Part shown: positions 6,062 through 12,100 of the stretch, in pieces | Numbering within the stretch: position 1 is the first letter of the stretch | Layout of the letters: every line of letters begins with the position of its first letter | Assembly (NCBI GenBank): GCA_023265355.1 | Contig: JAHFTZ010000013.1 | Coordinates: forward strand, 1-13,953 | Origin: Terriglobus sp. | GTDB taxonomy: Bacteria > Acidobacteriota > Terriglobia > Terriglobales > Acidobacteriaceae | DNA: 13,953 nucleotides | Direction: 5' to 3' | Program-made: the position numbers and the translations under genes | Notes under the pieces: generated by a model | What the model saw: only the letters and a program-made list of their open reading frames with translations | What the model was told of the DNA's origin: nothing | The model's database searches: none

Positions 6062-6334
6062 ATGGCGAACATGGTATTTTGCGCAAAGTATAAGCAGGAG
6101 ATGGAAGGTCTGGACGAGCCTCCGTTCGACTCCGACTTCGGTCAGAAGATCTACAAGACGGTCTCGAAGAAGGCCTGGGGCGAGTGGATCGAGCGCCAGA
6201 AGATGCTGCTGAACGAGTACCGGCTTCAGCCCTGGACGCCGCAGGCGCAGGAGTTCCTGGTCGAACAGATGAACGACTTTTTCTACGGCTCTGGCGGCGA
6301 AGTGCCGAAGGAGTTCGTGGCGCCGACGGCTTAA
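6062..6334 (+). CDS. yggX: Fe(2+)-trafficking / oxidative-damage protection protein YggX
   Basis: 90 residues, the usual size of YggX. The sequence keeps the family pattern: 'VFCAKYKQEMEGLD' with the conserved Cys7, then 'GQKIYKTVSKKAWGEWIERQ', 'KMLLNEYRL' and a C-terminal 'FLVEQMNDFFYG'. In enterobacteria YggX limits iron-driven damage, helps protect Fe-S proteins and is proposed to buffer labile ferrous iron; it is a small cytoplasmic protein. The start is firm: AGGAG at 6050-6054 lies 7 bases before the ATG. It sits 61 bases after rnr and only 4 bases before hemE, suggesting co-transcription with the heme genes. An iron protein directly ahead of uroporphyrinogen decarboxylase and ferrochelatase suggests, as inference only, a link between iron handling and heme synthesis. 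Confidence 0.93.
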   Translation: MANMVFCAKYKQEMEGLDEPPFDSDFGQKIYKTVSKKAWGEWIERQKMLLNEYRLQPWTPQAQEFLVEQMNDFFYGSGGEVPKEFVAPTA

Positions 6335-6338
6335 TCCC

Positions 6339-7439
6339 ATGTCGATGACACCACTGGAACTTGGCCGCAAGGCCGCGCAGGAAGAGATCGCCGCAGGGGG
6401 CAGCCGCTTTGTGCGCGCCTGTCTTCGGCAACCCGTGGACCGTACGCCTGTGTGGTTTCTACGCCAGGCCGGGCGCTACATGCCGGAGTATATGGCCGTG
6501 CGCAAGCACCACTCCCTGCTGGAGATCTGCCGTAACCCCGACGTGGCATCTGAGGTGACGATCACCGCAGCGGAGCGCCTGGGCGTGGATGCGGCGATCA
6601 TCTTTGCCGATCTGCTTCTGCCGTTTACGCCGATGGGTCTGGACTTTGAGTTTGTGAACGGTGAAGGCCCCGTCGTGCATGCTCCCATTCGCACGCTGGA
6701 GCAGGTGCAGGCTCTGCGCACCGACCGCGCGGAAGAACTGAGCTACGTTGCGCGGGCGATTGAGAAGGTTGCGGCGCACTTCGAAGCTCCACGCGAAGAC
6801 GGCGACCAGCTTGGCATCATCGGCTTTATCGGCGCGCCGTTCACGCTGGCCAGTTACATGATTGAAGGCGCTTCGTCCCGCAACTACATCGAGACGAAGA
6901 AAATGATGTATTCCAATGGAGCGGCGTGGAAGCTCCTGATGCAGAAGCTTATCTCTGTGCTGGTGGAGTATGCGCAGCAGCAGGTGGAAGCGGGCGCGGA
7001 CGTCATTCAGATCTTCGACAGTTGGGCGGGTGCGCTCTCTGTGAGCGACTACCGGCAGTTCGTTCTTCCCATCACGAAAGAGCTTGTGCAGCGTGTGCAG
7101 GCCCTCGGTGTGCCTGTCATTTACTTCGGCGTGGATACGGCGTCGTTGCTCAAAACGATGCGTGAGACTGGAGCGGATGTTCTCGGTCTCGACTGGCGCG
7201 TACCTTTGGATGAAGGCTGGAAACTCGTCGGCAGCGGATGCGCTGTGCAGGGTAATCTTGACCCCATCGCTCTTTTTGCACCGGAAGACCTTCTGAAGCA
7301 GCGCGTGAAGGAAGTGCTCGACGCTGCGGGCAATCGCAACGGACACATCTTTAATCTGGGACACGGCATCGTTCCAGGTACACCCGTAGAGAACGTCATC
7401 AATGTCGCTCGATGGGTCCAGGAGATGAGCGCGCGATGA
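6339..7439 (+). CDS. hemE: Uroporphyrinogen decarboxylase (HemE)
   Basis: 366 residues, normal family length. Catalyses the four decarboxylations turning uroporphyrinogen III into coproporphyrinogen III in the cytoplasm. The N-terminal signature 'PVWFLRQAGRYMPEY' (37-51) contains the substrate-binding arginines R42 and R46; the key aspartate is D91 in 'FADLLLPF'; 'GFIGAPFTLASYMIEG' (162-177) is the second signature with Y173; the C-terminal 'NLGHGI' carries H342. All expected active-site residues are present. The gene starts 4 bases after yggX with no obvious ribosome site close by (an AAGGAG at 6308-6313 is too distant), so translation may be coupled to yggX; ATG 6345 is an alternative start two codons in. 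Its TGA stop overlaps the hemH start codon as ATGA at 7436-7439. Confidence 0.97.
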   Translation: MSMTPLELGRKAAQEEIAAGGSRFVRACLRQPVDRTPVWFLRQAGRYMPEYMAVRKHHSLLEICRNPDVASEVTITAAERLGVDAAIIFADLLLPFTPMGLDFEFVNGEGPVVHAPIRTLEQVQALRTDRAEELSYVARAIEKVAAHFEAPREDGDQLGIIGFIGAPFTLASYMIEGASSRNYIETKKMMYSNGAAWKLLMQKLISVLVEYAQQQVEAGADVIQIFDSWAGALSVSDYRQFVLPITKELVQRVQALGVPVIYFGVDTASLLKTMRETGADVLGLDWRVPLDEGWKLVGSGCAVQGNLDPIALFAPEDLLKQRVKEVLDAAGNRNGHIFNLGHGIVPGTPVENVINVARWVQEMSAR

Positions 7440-7954
7440 ACTTCTTTTACTTCCTCGTTGGTCTGCTTGCTGGAAAGAAGGTCGCGCCCGTCAACGAGAG
7501 CGCTGTGTTTCTTCTCGCACATGGCACGCCCGATGTTCTCAGCGAGATGGCGGCTTACCTCAAGCTGGTCACCGGGGGACGCGGTCTGCCGCAGCACGTC
7601 GTGGAAGAGTTGCAGCATCGCTATGCAGAGATCGGTCTGCGCGAGGAACCGACGGCGGAAGGTCCACACCTCACGCGCTGGACGCTGATGCAGGCTGCTC
7701 TGCTCGAAAAGAAGTTGAAGCAGCGCGTGTATGTCGGCATGCGGAACTGGAAGCCGTTCATCGCGGATACCGTCAAGCAGATGCAAAAGGACGGCGTGAA
7801 GAAGATCACGGCGATCTGCCTTGCTCCGCAGAACTCACGCACCAGCGTCGGTCTCTACCGCCGCGCGTTAATGGATGCCGTGGGCGAAAGCATGCAGGTG
7901 GAGTTTCTTGCCGGCTGGGCGGAGCATCCTTTGCTGGCAAGGGCATTTGCATAG
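7436..7954 (+). CDS. hemH: Ferrochelatase, N-terminal half, ending at an in-frame TAG
   Basis: 172 residues from the ATG that overlaps the hemE stop (ATGA). Ferrochelatase inserts Fe2+ into a porphyrin. This half holds the first of the enzyme's two Rossmann-like domains: 'FLLAHGTPDVLSEMAAYL' (usual strand-1 motif of the family), 'VYVGMRNWKPFI' (the conserved Arg/Trp-Pro porphyrin-side motif) and 'LAPQNSRTSVGLYRRAL', ending '...WAEHPLLARAFA' and then TAG at 7952-7954. The same frame continues immediately into the C-terminal half, so this is a nonsense interruption without a frameshift; read through, the whole gene would encode 371 residues with the stop at codon 173. The extreme N-terminus is odd: a hydrophobic stretch ('FFYFLVGLLAG') comes before the usual family start and might be a membrane contact. 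Whether this half is made as a stable protein is unknown. Confidence 0.85.
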   Translation: MNFFYFLVGLLAGKKVAPVNESAVFLLAHGTPDVLSEMAAYLKLVTGGRGLPQHVVEELQHRYAEIGLREEPTAEGPHLTRWTLMQAALLEKKLKQRVYVGMRNWKPFIADTVKQMQKDGVKKITAICLAPQNSRTSVGLYRRALMDAVGESMQVEFLAGWAEHPLLARAFA

Positions 7955-7960
7955 AAGATG
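7952..7960 (+). other. hemH: In-frame stop-restart junction (TAG AAG ATG) inside hemH
   Basis: Read in the hemH frame the bases are GCA-TAG-AAG-ATG-CGT. One codon separates the amber stop from an in-frame ATG, a distance at which terminating ribosomes can reinitiate. A single base change (GAG or CAG to TAG) would account for it. A weak purine-rich AAGGG at 7939-7943 lies 14 bases before the ATG, so an independent ribosome site is not convincing. TAG is an ordinary stop codon for the neighbours (rnr, the end of hemH, hemG, the fucosidase and the small membrane protein all end in TAG), which argues against amber being reassigned in this genome. Confidence 0.9.
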
Positions 7961-8551
7961 CGTTTTGCGCTGGAGCGTGCACGCTATCAAGCCGCTGATG
8001 GCAAGGTGGCTGTGCTGTTTACCGCGCACGCTGTCCCTTGCCGCACCATTCAGGCTTCGGTGAAGCCTGTAGAGCATCACGGCATGGTACTGGCCACGCA
8101 GCCGGATACCTACGCGATCGAGTGCAAGGCGACGGCAAAGCTGATCGCGAAGCAGATGCAGGACGTGCTCGATGAGCGCGACTGGTACTTCAGCTTTCAG
8201 AGCCAGGGTCTGAGCGGCGGACCGTGGATCGGACCGACCGTCGAAGATACGCTCACCTCGTTGAAGTTTGCAGGCTACGAACATGTGGTGCTGCAGCCGG
8301 TCGGCTTCCTCTGTGACCACGTCGAGATTCTTTACGACATCGACATCGCTTTTCAGCAGACGGCCAACGAGCTCGGTCTTACCATCTCGCGCGCCGAGAG
8401 TCTGAATGATTCGCCTACGCTCATCGCTGCTTTGGAAGATCTGGTGAAGCACGGTGTGCCCCCCGAGAGCAGACCGGTTCCGGCAGCCAGCGTGGTGGAA
8501 GTTCTGACGGTGCTGGCGCCTATCGAAGAACTTGCCGGGACGAACGCTTAG
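7958..8551 (+). CDS. hemH: Ferrochelatase, C-terminal half, carrying the catalytic residues
   Basis: 197 residues if translation starts at the ATG one codon after the internal TAG. This half carries the second domain and the active site: 'VLFTAHAVP', equivalent to the family 'SAHG(I/L)P' motif with the metal-site histidine (H24 of this fragment); 'FQSQGLSGGPWIGPTVEDTL', the conserved Ser-Gly-Pro-Trp-Gly-Pro segment; and 'LQPVGFLCDHVEILYDIDI', containing the catalytic glutamate equivalent to that in the family 'DH(I/V)ET' motif. Nothing in it looks decayed: there is no frameshift and no second stop. It ends in TAG at 8549-8551, followed without a gap by the hemG ATG. The break falls in the helical region between the two domains, about 22 residues before the histidine strand. 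It could be the downstream part of a recent pseudogene, of a gene with a sequencing error, or one subunit of a split enzyme. Confidence 0.85.
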   Translation: MRFALERARYQAADGKVAVLFTAHAVPCRTIQASVKPVEHHGMVLATQPDTYAIECKATAKLIAKQMQDVLDERDWYFSFQSQGLSGGPWIGPTVEDTLTSLKFAGYEHVVLQPVGFLCDHVEILYDIDIAFQQTANELGLTISRAESLNDSPTLIAALEDLVKHGVPPESRPVPAASVVEVLTVLAPIEELAGTNA

Positions 8552-9931
8552 ATGAGTCGCGTCGCGATTATCGGCGGAGGCATGGCGGGGCTTTCGGCAG
8601 CTTACGAACTGGCGCAGCGCAAGATCCCATTCGTTTTGTACGAGGCTTCTGCGCGTCCTGGCGGAATCGTCGAGACGGCGAGGGAAGAAGGTTTCGTCAT
8701 GGAGTGCGGCCCGGACGGCTGGGTTTCAGAGAAGCCCTGGGCGCGCGAGCTCTGCATTGAGCTTGGCCTTGAAGACGAACTGATCCCATCCAACGACGCA
8801 GAGCGCGTCACGTATATTCTCCGCGAAGGCACACTGCACGCGATCCCGCAGGGGATGCGCATGATGGTGCCAACGGACCTCGAAGCCCTGCGCGAATCGA
8901 AGCTCTTCTCCCCCTCGGCCATTGCAGCATACGAGCATGAGCCGCAGCGCGCGCAGGAATTGAAGGATTATGCGGAGAGCCATGCAGCAGAAGACGAGAG
9001 TGTAGCGAGCTTCGTTCGCCGCCACTTTGGCGAAGAGGTCACGCGCACGATTGCCGCGCCTCTGCTCGCCGGAGTCTTTGGTGGCGACGTCGAACGTCTG
9101 AGTGCGCAGTCGGTGATGCCGCAGTTTCTGGCGATGGAGCGCACGCACGGCTCGCTGATCTTGGGGTTGCGTGAACGAAGCCGCGCGCATGCAAAGGCGA
9201 TCTTTACGACTCTTCGCAGTGGGCTTGGAACGTTGATCGATGCCATGACCAGCGTTCTGCCCGAGGGAAGTGTTCGTCTGCAAAGTTGCGTTCAGAAGAT
9301 GGAACGTGAGGGCGACCTCTGGAAGGTGTGCGTGGGAGATCGGCCTGAGACCTTCGATGCGGTTTTCCTTGCAACGCCTGTACACCGCGCTCGCTCGCTT
9401 ATGGCTTCGGTGGATGCGGAGGCGGCGCAGTTGCTCGCAATCAGCGCGAGTTCTGCAGTGATTGTCGGGTTCGGTTTCAGCGCCGAGCAGGCGAAGTCTT
9501 TCAGCGTTCCCCAGGGCTTTGGATTCCTCGTTCCGCCGGGAGAAGAGGGAAGCGATCTGCTCGCGGCGACCTTCAGCGATCAGAAATACGCTGGGCGCGC
9601 ACCGGAGGGTGGACGAGCTCTGCGAGCCTTCTTTGGCGGGAACGCGGGCGAGCGTCTGCAGGGCGAGAGCGATGGCTGGTTGACCGCCCTTGCGAAGAAA
9701 CAACTGGGCGCTGCGCTAGGATATGAGCTTCCTGACGCGTCGTTGACCATCGTGCGTCGCTGGCCGCTCTCTTTGCCGCAGTATGAGGTCGGACATGCGG
9801 ATCGCATGCGGCGTTTGAACGAACGCCTCAACCTGTTGCCTGGACTTACGCTGCTCGGAAACGCATATCGCGGAGTCGGTCTGCCTGACCTGATCCGCGA
9901 CGGGCGTGAAGCGGCAAGGCAGATTTCTTAG
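8552..9931 (+). CDS. hemG: FAD-dependent protoporphyrinogen/coproporphyrinogen oxidase (HemY-type PPOX)
   Basis: 459 residues, normal for the oxygen-dependent flavoprotein PPOX family (called HemG in many pipelines, HemY in Bacillus; unrelated to the small E. coli flavodoxin-like HemG). It removes six electrons from a porphyrinogen to give the porphyrin. The N-terminus is a dinucleotide-binding fold, 'VAIIGGGMAGLSAAYELA' with the GxGxxG-like glycines at 8-13 and an acidic residue ending the second strand (E31), then 'ARPGG'. The body has 'GPDGW', 'LLAGVFGGDVERLSAQS' and the C-terminal FAD motif 'GLTLLGNAYRGVGLPDLIRDG'. Whether the substrate is protoporphyrinogen IX (classic route) or coproporphyrinogen III (the route of Gram-positives, where hemE-hemH-hemY also cluster) cannot be decided from these genes; no HemQ is in the window. 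The ATG directly follows the hemH TAG, so translation is probably coupled. Its stop codon overlaps the ribosome site of the next gene. Confidence 0.93.
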   Translation: MSRVAIIGGGMAGLSAAYELAQRKIPFVLYEASARPGGIVETAREEGFVMECGPDGWVSEKPWARELCIELGLEDELIPSNDAERVTYILREGTLHAIPQGMRMMVPTDLEALRESKLFSPSAIAAYEHEPQRAQELKDYAESHAAEDESVASFVRRHFGEEVTRTIAAPLLAGVFGGDVERLSAQSVMPQFLAMERTHGSLILGLRERSRAHAKAIFTTLRSGLGTLIDAMTSVLPEGSVRLQSCVQKMEREGDLWKVCVGDRPETFDAVFLATPVHRARSLMASVDAEAAQLLAISASSAVIVGFGFSAEQAKSFSVPQGFGFLVPPGEEGSDLLAATFSDQKYAGRAPEGGRALRAFFGGNAGERLQGESDGWLTALAKKQLGAALGYELPDASLTIVRRWPLSLPQYEVGHADRMRRLNERLNLLPGLTLLGNAYRGVGLPDLIRDGREAARQIS

Positions 9932-9940
9932 GAGCGAACG

Positions 9941-10591
9941 ATGCGACGCTGGCTTGCCCTGTCGATCTTTCTTTTCTGCGGCGCGCTTGCAGCGCAACAG
10001 CGCATGGTCACGGAAAAGATCGAGTGGACCTGGGCGGACAGGCCTGCAACGGTGGATGCGAAGTTGCCGAACGTCCTGCTCCTCGGTGATTCCATCACGC
10101 GCGGCTACTATCCCGAGACGGCGAAGCAGTTCGCAGGCATCGCCAATGTTTATCTCTTTGCCACCTCCGCTGCGTCCGGCGATCCCAGGCTACCTGTTCA
10201 GTTGCGTGAATACTTTGCGATGGCGGGAGTTCGTTTCGCTGTGGTTCACTTCAATAACGGCATGCACGGCTGGGGTTACACGGAGAAGGAGTACACAGCG
10301 GGGCTGCCCGGCATGATCGCCGCAGTGCGCGCTGGCGCTCCGTCTGCCAAGCTGCTCTGGGCCACGACTACACCAGTGCTGCATGATTCGGCAGAGAGTA
10401 CGAACGCCCGCATCGACACGCGCAATGCCGGTGCTTCTGCACTCATGGCGCGGGAGAAGGTCGTTATCGACGATCAGCATGCCCTGATGCTGAAGCATCC
10501 GGAGTTGCATGACGGCGATGTACACTTCACCGCTGCAGGCTACGCTTTGGAAGCGGAGCAGGCTACTGCTGCGATCCGACGGCTTATCTAA
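9941..10591 (+). CDS. Secreted SGNH/GDSL-family hydrolase (esterase-like)
   Basis: 216 residues. A signal peptide covers about residues 1-19 ('RRWLALSIFLFCGALAA'), so the mature enzyme is periplasmic or secreted. Block I is 'VLLLGDSITRGY' with nucleophile S51; block III is 'VVHFNNGMHGWGY' with the oxyanion-hole Asn around 105-106; the C-terminal block is 'DGDVHFTAAGY' with H195 and D191 or D193 as acid partner. 'LLWATTTPV' is also typical of this subfamily. Members act on acetylated or acylated sugars or other esters; the natural substrate cannot be told. The start is clear: AGGAG at 9930-9934 lies 6 bases before the ATG and overlaps the hemG stop codon, so the gene is likely read in the hem operon although it has no evident role in heme synthesis. 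It ends in TAA, followed by hairpin repeats. Confidence 0.9.
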   Translation: MRRWLALSIFLFCGALAAQQRMVTEKIEWTWADRPATVDAKLPNVLLLGDSITRGYYPETAKQFAGIANVYLFATSAASGDPRLPVQLREYFAMAGVRFAVVHFNNGMHGWGYTEKEYTAGLPGMIAAVRAGAPSAKLLWATTTPVLHDSAESTNARIDTRNAGASALMAREKVVIDDQHALMLKHPELHDGDVHFTAAGYALEAEQATAAIRRLI

Positions 10592-10732: not shown

Positions 10733-12100
10733 CTAAATACCCACTCCAGCCCTTGGCTTATCGCGCCGCACGAAGTCGGTATCCTGCATCGGAACACCAT
10801 CGCACTCCAGCACAATCGTCGTCACCGGCGAGTCCGGTGCATGCTCCGGAAGATGTGTGAGATGGGTGCGAAAGCCGTCCTGTGTGACCGTGACACTTGC
10901 GCCGGTCTTCAGGACCTTCGCGGAGAGCACCTTATTCTTCAGGCCCGAGATGGAGACGTCAGTTCCTGGCCAGAAGTACACGTGCATCTGCAGTTGAGCA
11001 CCGCGCCGCGTAAAACTGGCGTACTCCGAGCCTCGCGGTTGGCAGGTATCCGGGTTGTTGTAGATGCAGTCGCCGCTGGTCTGCATCCACCTGCCCACTT
11101 CCGTGAGGATGCGCACAGACTCTTCTGGAATGGAGCCGTCCGTTCCGCGCGGACCAATATTGAGCAGGTAATTGCCACCATCGCGCGAGCAGGTAATGAG
11201 ATTGCGAATGACGGTGCGCGAAGATTTCCAGTTGTCGTCCGCCGCCTGGTATCCCCAACTGTCGTTGAGCGTCATGCAGCTCTCCCACGGACGCCCGCCC
11301 TTTTCCGCGACGATCCTCTGCTCCGGGGTGGAGAAGTCGCCGGGCAGATCGTTGCGGTTGTTCACGATGATCTCAGGCTGCAGCTCGAAGACCATCTTGT
11401 TCATCTTCTCGGATTCCCAGCCTTTCGCATCGAGCGGCCAGTGCACGTCGTACCAGAGCACGTCGATCTTGCCGTAGTTCGTCAGCAGTTCGCGAATGAG
11501 GCCATGGGTGTAGTCTACGAAGCGGCGTCGCGCAGCTTCGTCCGTCGCGCACTTGGCGCCGTCGGGATGGTGCCAGTCCATCAGAGAATAATAGAAGCCG
11601 ACGCGCAGACCCTCGGCGCGGCAGGCCTCAACGTACTCGCGCACGATGTCGCGCTTCGGTCCGAGGTTTACGGAGTTGTAATTGGTCAACTTCGTATCCC
11701 AGTTGCAAAAGCCTTCGTGGTGCTTCGTCGTCAGAACGACATACTTCATGCCTGCGGCCTTGGCCAGCTTGGCCCAGGCCGCGGGAGCGCCCGGCTTGGG
11801 ATGAAAGATCTGCGTGTAGGTCTGGTACTCGGCGACGGGGATGGCTTCTTCTTCCATCGCCCACTCGTGGCGCGCGTGCGCGGAGTACAGACCGAAGTGG
11901 ATGAACATGCCGAATCTGGCGGCATGCCACCACGCCATGCGCCGCGCCTGCTCTTCCGTTGCCGCGCCACCGTTGGTGTACTGACCTGTACCCGTTCCTG
12001 TGCCCTCCGCCGAAACCGAAGGCGTTGCAAGTGCGAGAGACGCTGCGGCTGCGCCAGCGCCGAGGAGCATGCCGCGACGGGAGATCCTGAGCTCGTTCAT
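10733..12100 (-). CDS. Tat-exported alpha-L-fucosidase, glycoside hydrolase family 29
   Basis: 455 residues. A twin-arginine signal ('SRRGMLLGAG' at 7-16, then an Ala-rich stretch ending near 'SVSA' at 28-31) directs export. The catalytic barrel begins about residue 50: 'RFGMFIHFGLYS' (62-73), 'YVVLTTKHHEGFCNWD' (120-135), 'GFYYSLMDWHHPD' (168-180) and 'IDVLWYDVHW' (212-221), where D218 matches the GH29 nucleophile; a beta-sandwich C-terminal domain follows. Such enzymes remove terminal alpha-L-fucose from glycans by a retaining mechanism. The acid/base residue is poorly conserved in GH29 and I do not assign it. The ATG at 12100 is the only start that keeps the Tat region intact; there is no Shine-Dalgarno sequence, but a promoter lies immediately upstream, suggesting a leaderless transcript. 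It lies 49 bases downstream of the small membrane protein gene on the same strand. Confidence 0.92.
   Translation of the reverse strand: MNELRISRRGMLLGAGAAAASLALATPSVSAEGTGTGTGQYTNGGAATEEQARRMAWWHAARFGMFIHFGLYSAHARHEWAMEEEAIPVAEYQTYTQIFHPKPGAPAAWAKLAKAAGMKYVVLTTKHHEGFCNWDTKLTNYNSVNLGPKRDIVREYVEACRAEGLRVGFYYSLMDWHHPDGAKCATDEAARRRFVDYTHGLIRELLTNYGKIDVLWYDVHWPLDAKGWESEKMNKMVFELQPEIIVNNRNDLPGDFSTPEQRIVAEKGGRPWESCMTLNDSWGYQAADDNWKSSRTVIRNLITCSRDGGNYLLNIGPRGTDGSIPEESVRILTEVGRWMQTSGDCIYNNPDTCQPRGSEYASFTRRGAQLQMHVYFWPGTDVSISGLKNKVLSAKVLKTGASVTVTQDGFRTHLTHLPEHAPDSPVTTIVLECDGVPMQDTDFVRRDKPRAGVGI

Follow-up and report, generated by a model that had tools for sequence, protein, structure and literature searches.

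Does a ferrochelatase gene that is interrupted by a single stop codon encode an enzyme made in two pieces, or does the stop codon belong to the assembly rather than to the cells that were sampled? This question is raised by a stretch of DNA of 13,953 nucleotides (hereafter, the window), in which hemH forms a single frame of 371 codons at positions 7436–8551 of the forward strand, with TAG at codon 173 (7952–7954) as its sole interruption. This stretch corresponds to contig C457 in a metagenome-assembled genome (MAG) of 2.71 Mb in 480 contigs, which is 70.72% complete and 0.83% contaminated. The organism would be a Terriglobus-like acidobacterium, judging from named homologues and from the nearest named locus (uncultured Terriglobus sp., 71% identity). 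Judging from the assembled sequence, the TAG is probably an error in the consensus of this fragmented MAG, or else a nonsense variant that is in the minority or not fixed. In a draft MAG, one private stop can thus mimic a split enzyme, and comparison with relatives removes most of the interest that such a gene would otherwise have.

The hemH Gene and Its Neighborhood

The N-terminal part of hemH (7436–7954, forward strand) comprises 172 codons plus the in-frame TAG, and matches the PF00762 profile with 92.6 bits over positions 2–168 of 317. The TAG is followed by one AAG codon and then, with the frame kept, by an ATG at 7958, from which the C-terminal part (7958–8551, forward strand) extends for 197 codons to a TAG stop and matches PF00762 with 121.8 bits over positions 176–315 of 317. 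When the frame is read through its one TAG, a profile search yields 228.1 bits over positions 2–315 of 317, compared to a cut-off of 27. The stretches LAHGTP, MRNWKP and PQNS are present in the N-terminal half, and TAHAVP, SGGPWIGP and DHVEIL in the C-terminal half; TAHAVP and DHVEIL are the His and Glu stretches of the active site and have catalytic roles. An earlier reading made from the sequence alone had described this frame with its single TAG, six motifs divided between two halves, and an ATG one codon after the stop, and each of these was seen again, with both halves matching PF00762.

The gene encodes an ordinary ferrochelatase and has hemE and hemG as its neighbors. Its ATG overlaps the stop codon of hemE (as ATGA), an intact gene for uroporphyrinogen decarboxylase at 6339–7439 of the forward strand (TIGR01464, 410 bits, cut-off 302.95). 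Directly 3′ of hemH lies an intact gene for a protoporphyrinogen/coproporphyrinogen oxidase of the HemY/CgoX type (hemG/cgoX; 8552–9931, forward strand; TIGR00562, 229.7 bits, cut-off 97.85). Also upstream are a gene for a YggX-type Fe(2+)-trafficking and oxidative damage protection protein (6062–6334, forward strand; PF04362, with NF003817 over its cut-off) and a gene named by eye as RNase R. At 9941–10591, the window encodes a protein of 216 residues, SGNH/GDSL hydrolase-like by eye, which is without a match in the otherwise collinear region of G194, the nearest same-genus genome.

Codon 173 in Relatives

Codon 173 is a sense codon in all 18 other genomes of the same genus that were searched, being GAG in 8, GAA in 5 and GAT or GAC in 5 (Glu in 13, Asp in 5). 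In each of these relatives, the frame runs without a stop from the AHGTP stretch across the aligned site (one, L050, ends later, at a contig end), the C-terminal half is matched in all 18, and the split is conserved in none of them. In G194, codon 173 is GAG, and the identity to the window gene is 165/172 in the N-terminal half and 174/198 in the C-terminal half. In an alignment of 25 hand-chosen relatives with an intact gene (A1), position 173 is occupied by Glu in 23 proteins and by Gln in the other 2.

Across the family, a ferrochelatase match was found in 283 of 300 genomes, the MAG included, with no inside stop among the matches listed. Ten same-family genomes with weak matches also contained no inside stop in any of 16 ferrochelatase matches, 8 of which start within 20 bases of a contig start. 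In the genome G127, ferrochelatase occurs in two pieces in different frames on contig C141 (L200, L212), and the same genome has another partial match.

When 5.77 billion proteins were searched, with the best 120 listed per query and with scoring in two of the runs confined to the 8000 candidates that shared the most words, each half of hemH (P0001 and P0121) was represented by a single sequence from one contig. The intact relatives P0241 (95% identity, 2 members) and P0242 (93% identity, 4 members), both of 371 residues, carry Glu at position 173. A second contig, of 14,297 nucleotides, encodes the same two hemH halves and is probably from the same assembly. The search also returned P0123, a C-terminal half of 195 residues on a contig of 1,669 nucleotides, which starts at the equivalent of Met175 and has likely been cut by the contig start, and P0243, a ferrochelatase of 495 residues on a contig of 2,447 nucleotides in which the N-terminal half occurs twice in tandem and which may be a chimera or a true duplication. 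A BLASTN comparison of hemH with a plasmid collection gave no match.

Outside this assembly, no TAG at codon 173 was found in the 18 genus genomes or among the protein matches listed. The sequence-only reading had proposed to look up this codon in close relatives, and the answer is a sense codon for Glu or Asp in every same-genus genome and TAG in one assembly. It had also held that a private TAG accompanied by a second, intact hemH elsewhere in the genome would count against it; no such copy came to light, and the 70.7%-complete MAG contains no other PF00762 match.

Constraint on the Interrupted Gene

The same reading had seen no damage in hemH besides the TAG, and this is borne out by counts of private amino acid changes among four close sequences. 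In the N- and C-terminal halves, respectively, these number 2 and 2 in the window, 2 and 4 in P0241, 2 and 5 in P0242, and 3 and 8 in G194, giving a total of 4 in the window compared to 6, 7 and 11 in the intact copies. Since the interrupted gene has fewer private changes than its intact relatives and no further lesions, hemH is without decay, and a decayed pseudogene was rejected as an explanation. This means that the stop is either very young or absent from the cells.

Relative to G194, dN/dS is 0.029 in the N-terminal half (dN 0.021, dS 0.70) and 0.107 in the C-terminal half (dN 0.074, dS 0.69). The C-terminal half diverges more than the N-terminal half in all six pairs, intact ones included; between P0241 and P0242, for example, there are 6 differences in 172 residues compared to 22 in 199.

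The Restart Codon and the Position of the Break

The ATG that follows the stop corresponds to Met175 of the intact family, as the aligned codon is ATG in 10 of the 18 genus relatives and the residue is Met in 20 of the 25 relatives in A1. The putative restart codon is, on this comparison, an ancestral methionine. An ATG occurs within two codons of 5 of the 105 codons in the G194 gene that are one change away from a stop, so its presence after the stop amounts to a coincidence of about 5%. In addition, 24 of the 30 bases preceding the ATG at 7958 are identical to those of the intact G194 gene. The predicted duplex with the anti-Shine-Dalgarno sequence is −4.1 kcal/mol for this ATG, compared to −7.4 kcal/mol for the hemH start, −4.0 for hemG and −2.1 for hemE.

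The stop had been placed in the linker between the two ferrochelatase domains, and the structural model contradicts this. An AlphaFold2 model of P0241, the intact relative with 95% identity (mean pLDDT 80.5), places residue 173 midway along a helix at residues 165–185 (block pLDDT 94–96), which sits between strands at 154–158 and 190–198. Residue 173 aligns with residue 159 of Bacillus subtilis HemH (1ak1), whose second domain we take to start near residue 129, so the break would fall well within the second domain. Among open-licence papers, judged by their titles and the beginnings of their abstracts, none on a split ferrochelatase was found. In sum, nothing positive was found for a split enzyme, and a functional split is not supported.

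TAG as Stop or Sense Codon

A sense reading of UAG in this lineage is so improbable as to be negligible. The pattern that would favor such a reading is that the three internal stops accepted in the MAG (in hemH, in the COX1 gene on contig C477 and in the MFS gene on contig C50, described below) are all TAG, and that Glu positions are affected in two of the three genes. However, 57–61% of one-step nonsense changes would yield TAG with this codon usage, and the chance of three TAGs out of three is about 0.18–0.23, which makes the pattern unremarkable. The third site, in the MFS gene, is Trp in G194, and five early stops that were set aside comprise one TAG, three TGA and one TAA.

More directly, TAG functions as a terminal stop. 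Of the 87 orthologues compared with G194 (see below), 61 align with the G194 gene up to its final residue; every one of these ends at the same place in the MAG as in G194, and their stops are TAG in 18, TGA in 22 and TAA in 21, which already contradicts recoding. Near hemH, the genes that end in TAG include RNase R, hemG/cgoX, the gene at 10733–12100 (fucosidase-like by eye) and orf103. The sequence-only reading had judged reassignment unlikely from the stops of the neighboring genes, and the orthologues lead to the same judgment. No tRNA with a CUA anticodon was found among 22 tRNA matches, a set that is incomplete like the MAG itself.

Other Interrupted Genes in the Assembly

Interrupted conserved genes are a background of this assembly, although their rate is poorly measured. 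Comparison of the MAG with its G194 orthologues, in which a frame filter reduced 184 best hits to 87 genes (30,845 codons), revealed 7 in-frame stops. Five of these, at codons 13–48, were set aside because the longest G194 open frame probably begins upstream of the true gene. This leaves two internal stops, in hemH and in an MFS gene (L077, contig C50), where TAG stands in place of the TGG of G194 at about base 30, about 30 bases from the contig start. A COX1 gene (L218, contig C477, reverse strand) contains one in-frame TAG at base 556 and is otherwise open; the site is GAA in the 93%-identical G194 orthologue, and four further orthologues (66–68% identity) are without an inside stop. Seven genes aligned only partly despite room on the contig, and a clear frameshift is seen in one of them, an ABC transporter gene (L080, contig C381, about 1245–1269), with which the G194 orthologue aligns in two frames. 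The COX1, MFS and ABC transporter cases, beside hemH, are the reason for regarding interruption as background.

The gene sample was partly chosen. Sixty-six of the 87 genes are on 20 contigs, including C50 and C457, that were selected because of hits or of signs that aroused suspicion, and the other 21 are on 40 contigs taken by number. No in-frame stop occurs in those 21 genes, and the estimate of the background thus comes from genes that were in part chosen. When the MAG was scanned by protein family, stops were flagged in 2 of 20 MFS matches (C50 and C273) and 1 of 6 COX1 matches, and no inside stop in 29 ABC_tran, 21 TonB barrel and 18 adh_short matches. In the MFS gene on C273, the flagged TAG seems to be where the protein naturally ends, and this case was discarded. 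A scan of 20 contigs by codon usage only, which listed nothing with a first scoring and many doubtful frames with a second, was replaced by the comparison with G194 orthologues.

Demand for Heme

The COX1 family has 6 matches in the MAG, of which 3 are whole and free of stops. A ChdC/HemQ-like gene is found on contig C29 (PF06778, 187 bits; NCBIfam HemQ_actino, 106 bits, below the cut-off of 235), and with this gene in the genome the ferrochelatase is possibly of the coproporphyrin type. Together, the COX1 genes and the ChdC-like gene suggest that the cell needs heme. This apparent need favors a consensus error or unfixed variant over a recent nonsense mutation.

Weighing the Explanations

The most probable explanation, as stated at the outset, is that a base error in the MAG consensus, or a minority nonsense variant entering it, would have created the TAG, which would not be fixed in the population. 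We infer such a technical or unfixed cause on the ground that hemH would hardly be dispensable in a cell that has several heme-copper oxidases and no ferrochelatase besides this one. The confinement of the TAG to this assembly, with sense codons in 18 of 18 genus relatives, points in the same direction, as do the similar interruptions of other conserved genes in a fragmented MAG and the normal constraint on the rest of hemH. Several observations fit this explanation less well: the stop is at base 7952 of 13953, in the middle of the contig rather than at its edge, the presence of an ATG two codons further on is a mild coincidence, and none of the 21 genes sampled by contig number has an in-frame stop. 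The P0123 half that begins at the equivalent methionine and the 14,297-nucleotide contig with the same two halves also run against it, though the former is likely a contig-start cut and the latter probably belongs to the same assembly. A possible but doubtful alternative is a genuine nonsense mutation that arose very recently and became fixed in the strain that was sampled; the cell would then depend on the uptake of heme, on residual read-through, or on another ferrochelatase encoded in the part of the genome that the MAG lacks. It agrees with the change of a single codon without further decay and with the lack of a second PF00762 match, albeit in an incomplete MAG; moreover, 2 of the 25 intact relatives have Gln at this site, so the enzyme might still work if weak near-cognate read-through occurs. 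Against it stands the apparent need for heme; in addition, a further copy would not be anticipated, since each of the 18 genus genomes (80–100% complete) yields one ferrochelatase match.

It is very unlikely that the enzyme works despite the stop, either by leaky read-through of UAG or because translation terminates and then restarts at 7958, giving two polypeptides that would assemble. For such an enzyme to exist, the TAG would have to be real and heme would have to be made by read-through inserting Gln or a similar residue (relatives have Glu, Asp or Gln) or by fragments reassembling across a broken helix, which is equally improbable. The kept frame, the ATG two codons past the stop, the conserved residues in both halves, an anti-Shine-Dalgarno duplex no weaker than those of hemG and hemE, and the start of P0123 at the equivalent methionine can be cited for it. 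However, the ATG is the ancestral Met175, the sequence before it is mostly that of the intact G194 gene and forms a weaker duplex than the hemH start, the break cuts a helix of the P0241 model, no relative examined has kept the split, and the incomplete tRNA set has no CUA anticodon. Of the three explanations offered by the sequence-only reading, error and recent nonsense mutation thus fit the data, while the two-piece enzyme that it stressed is left without positive support. If the stop is real and the gene works, reassembly of fragments or read-through would have been put to a natural test in a heme enzyme.

Comparison with Known Systems

The nearest known system is the class II ferrochelatase HemH/CpfC (PF00762), represented by B. 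subtilis HemH (1ak1) and Listeria CpfC (8at8). The P0241 model matches 1ak1 (Foldseek E 2.6e-20, TMt 0.85) and has the ferrochelatase fold, and the window gene keeps TAHAVP and DHVEIL and has hemE and hemG/cgoX as neighbors. Unlike HemH/CpfC, it has an in-frame TAG at codon 173, which is seen only in this assembly.

Nonsense interruptions of single genes are a common annotation problem in draft genomes and MAGs. The window gene resembles them in that one codon is changed, the remainder of hemH is intact, the change is absent from relatives, and similar cases exist in the same MAG (COX1 on C477 and MFS on C50). It differs from them in that an ATG happens to follow the stop after one codon.
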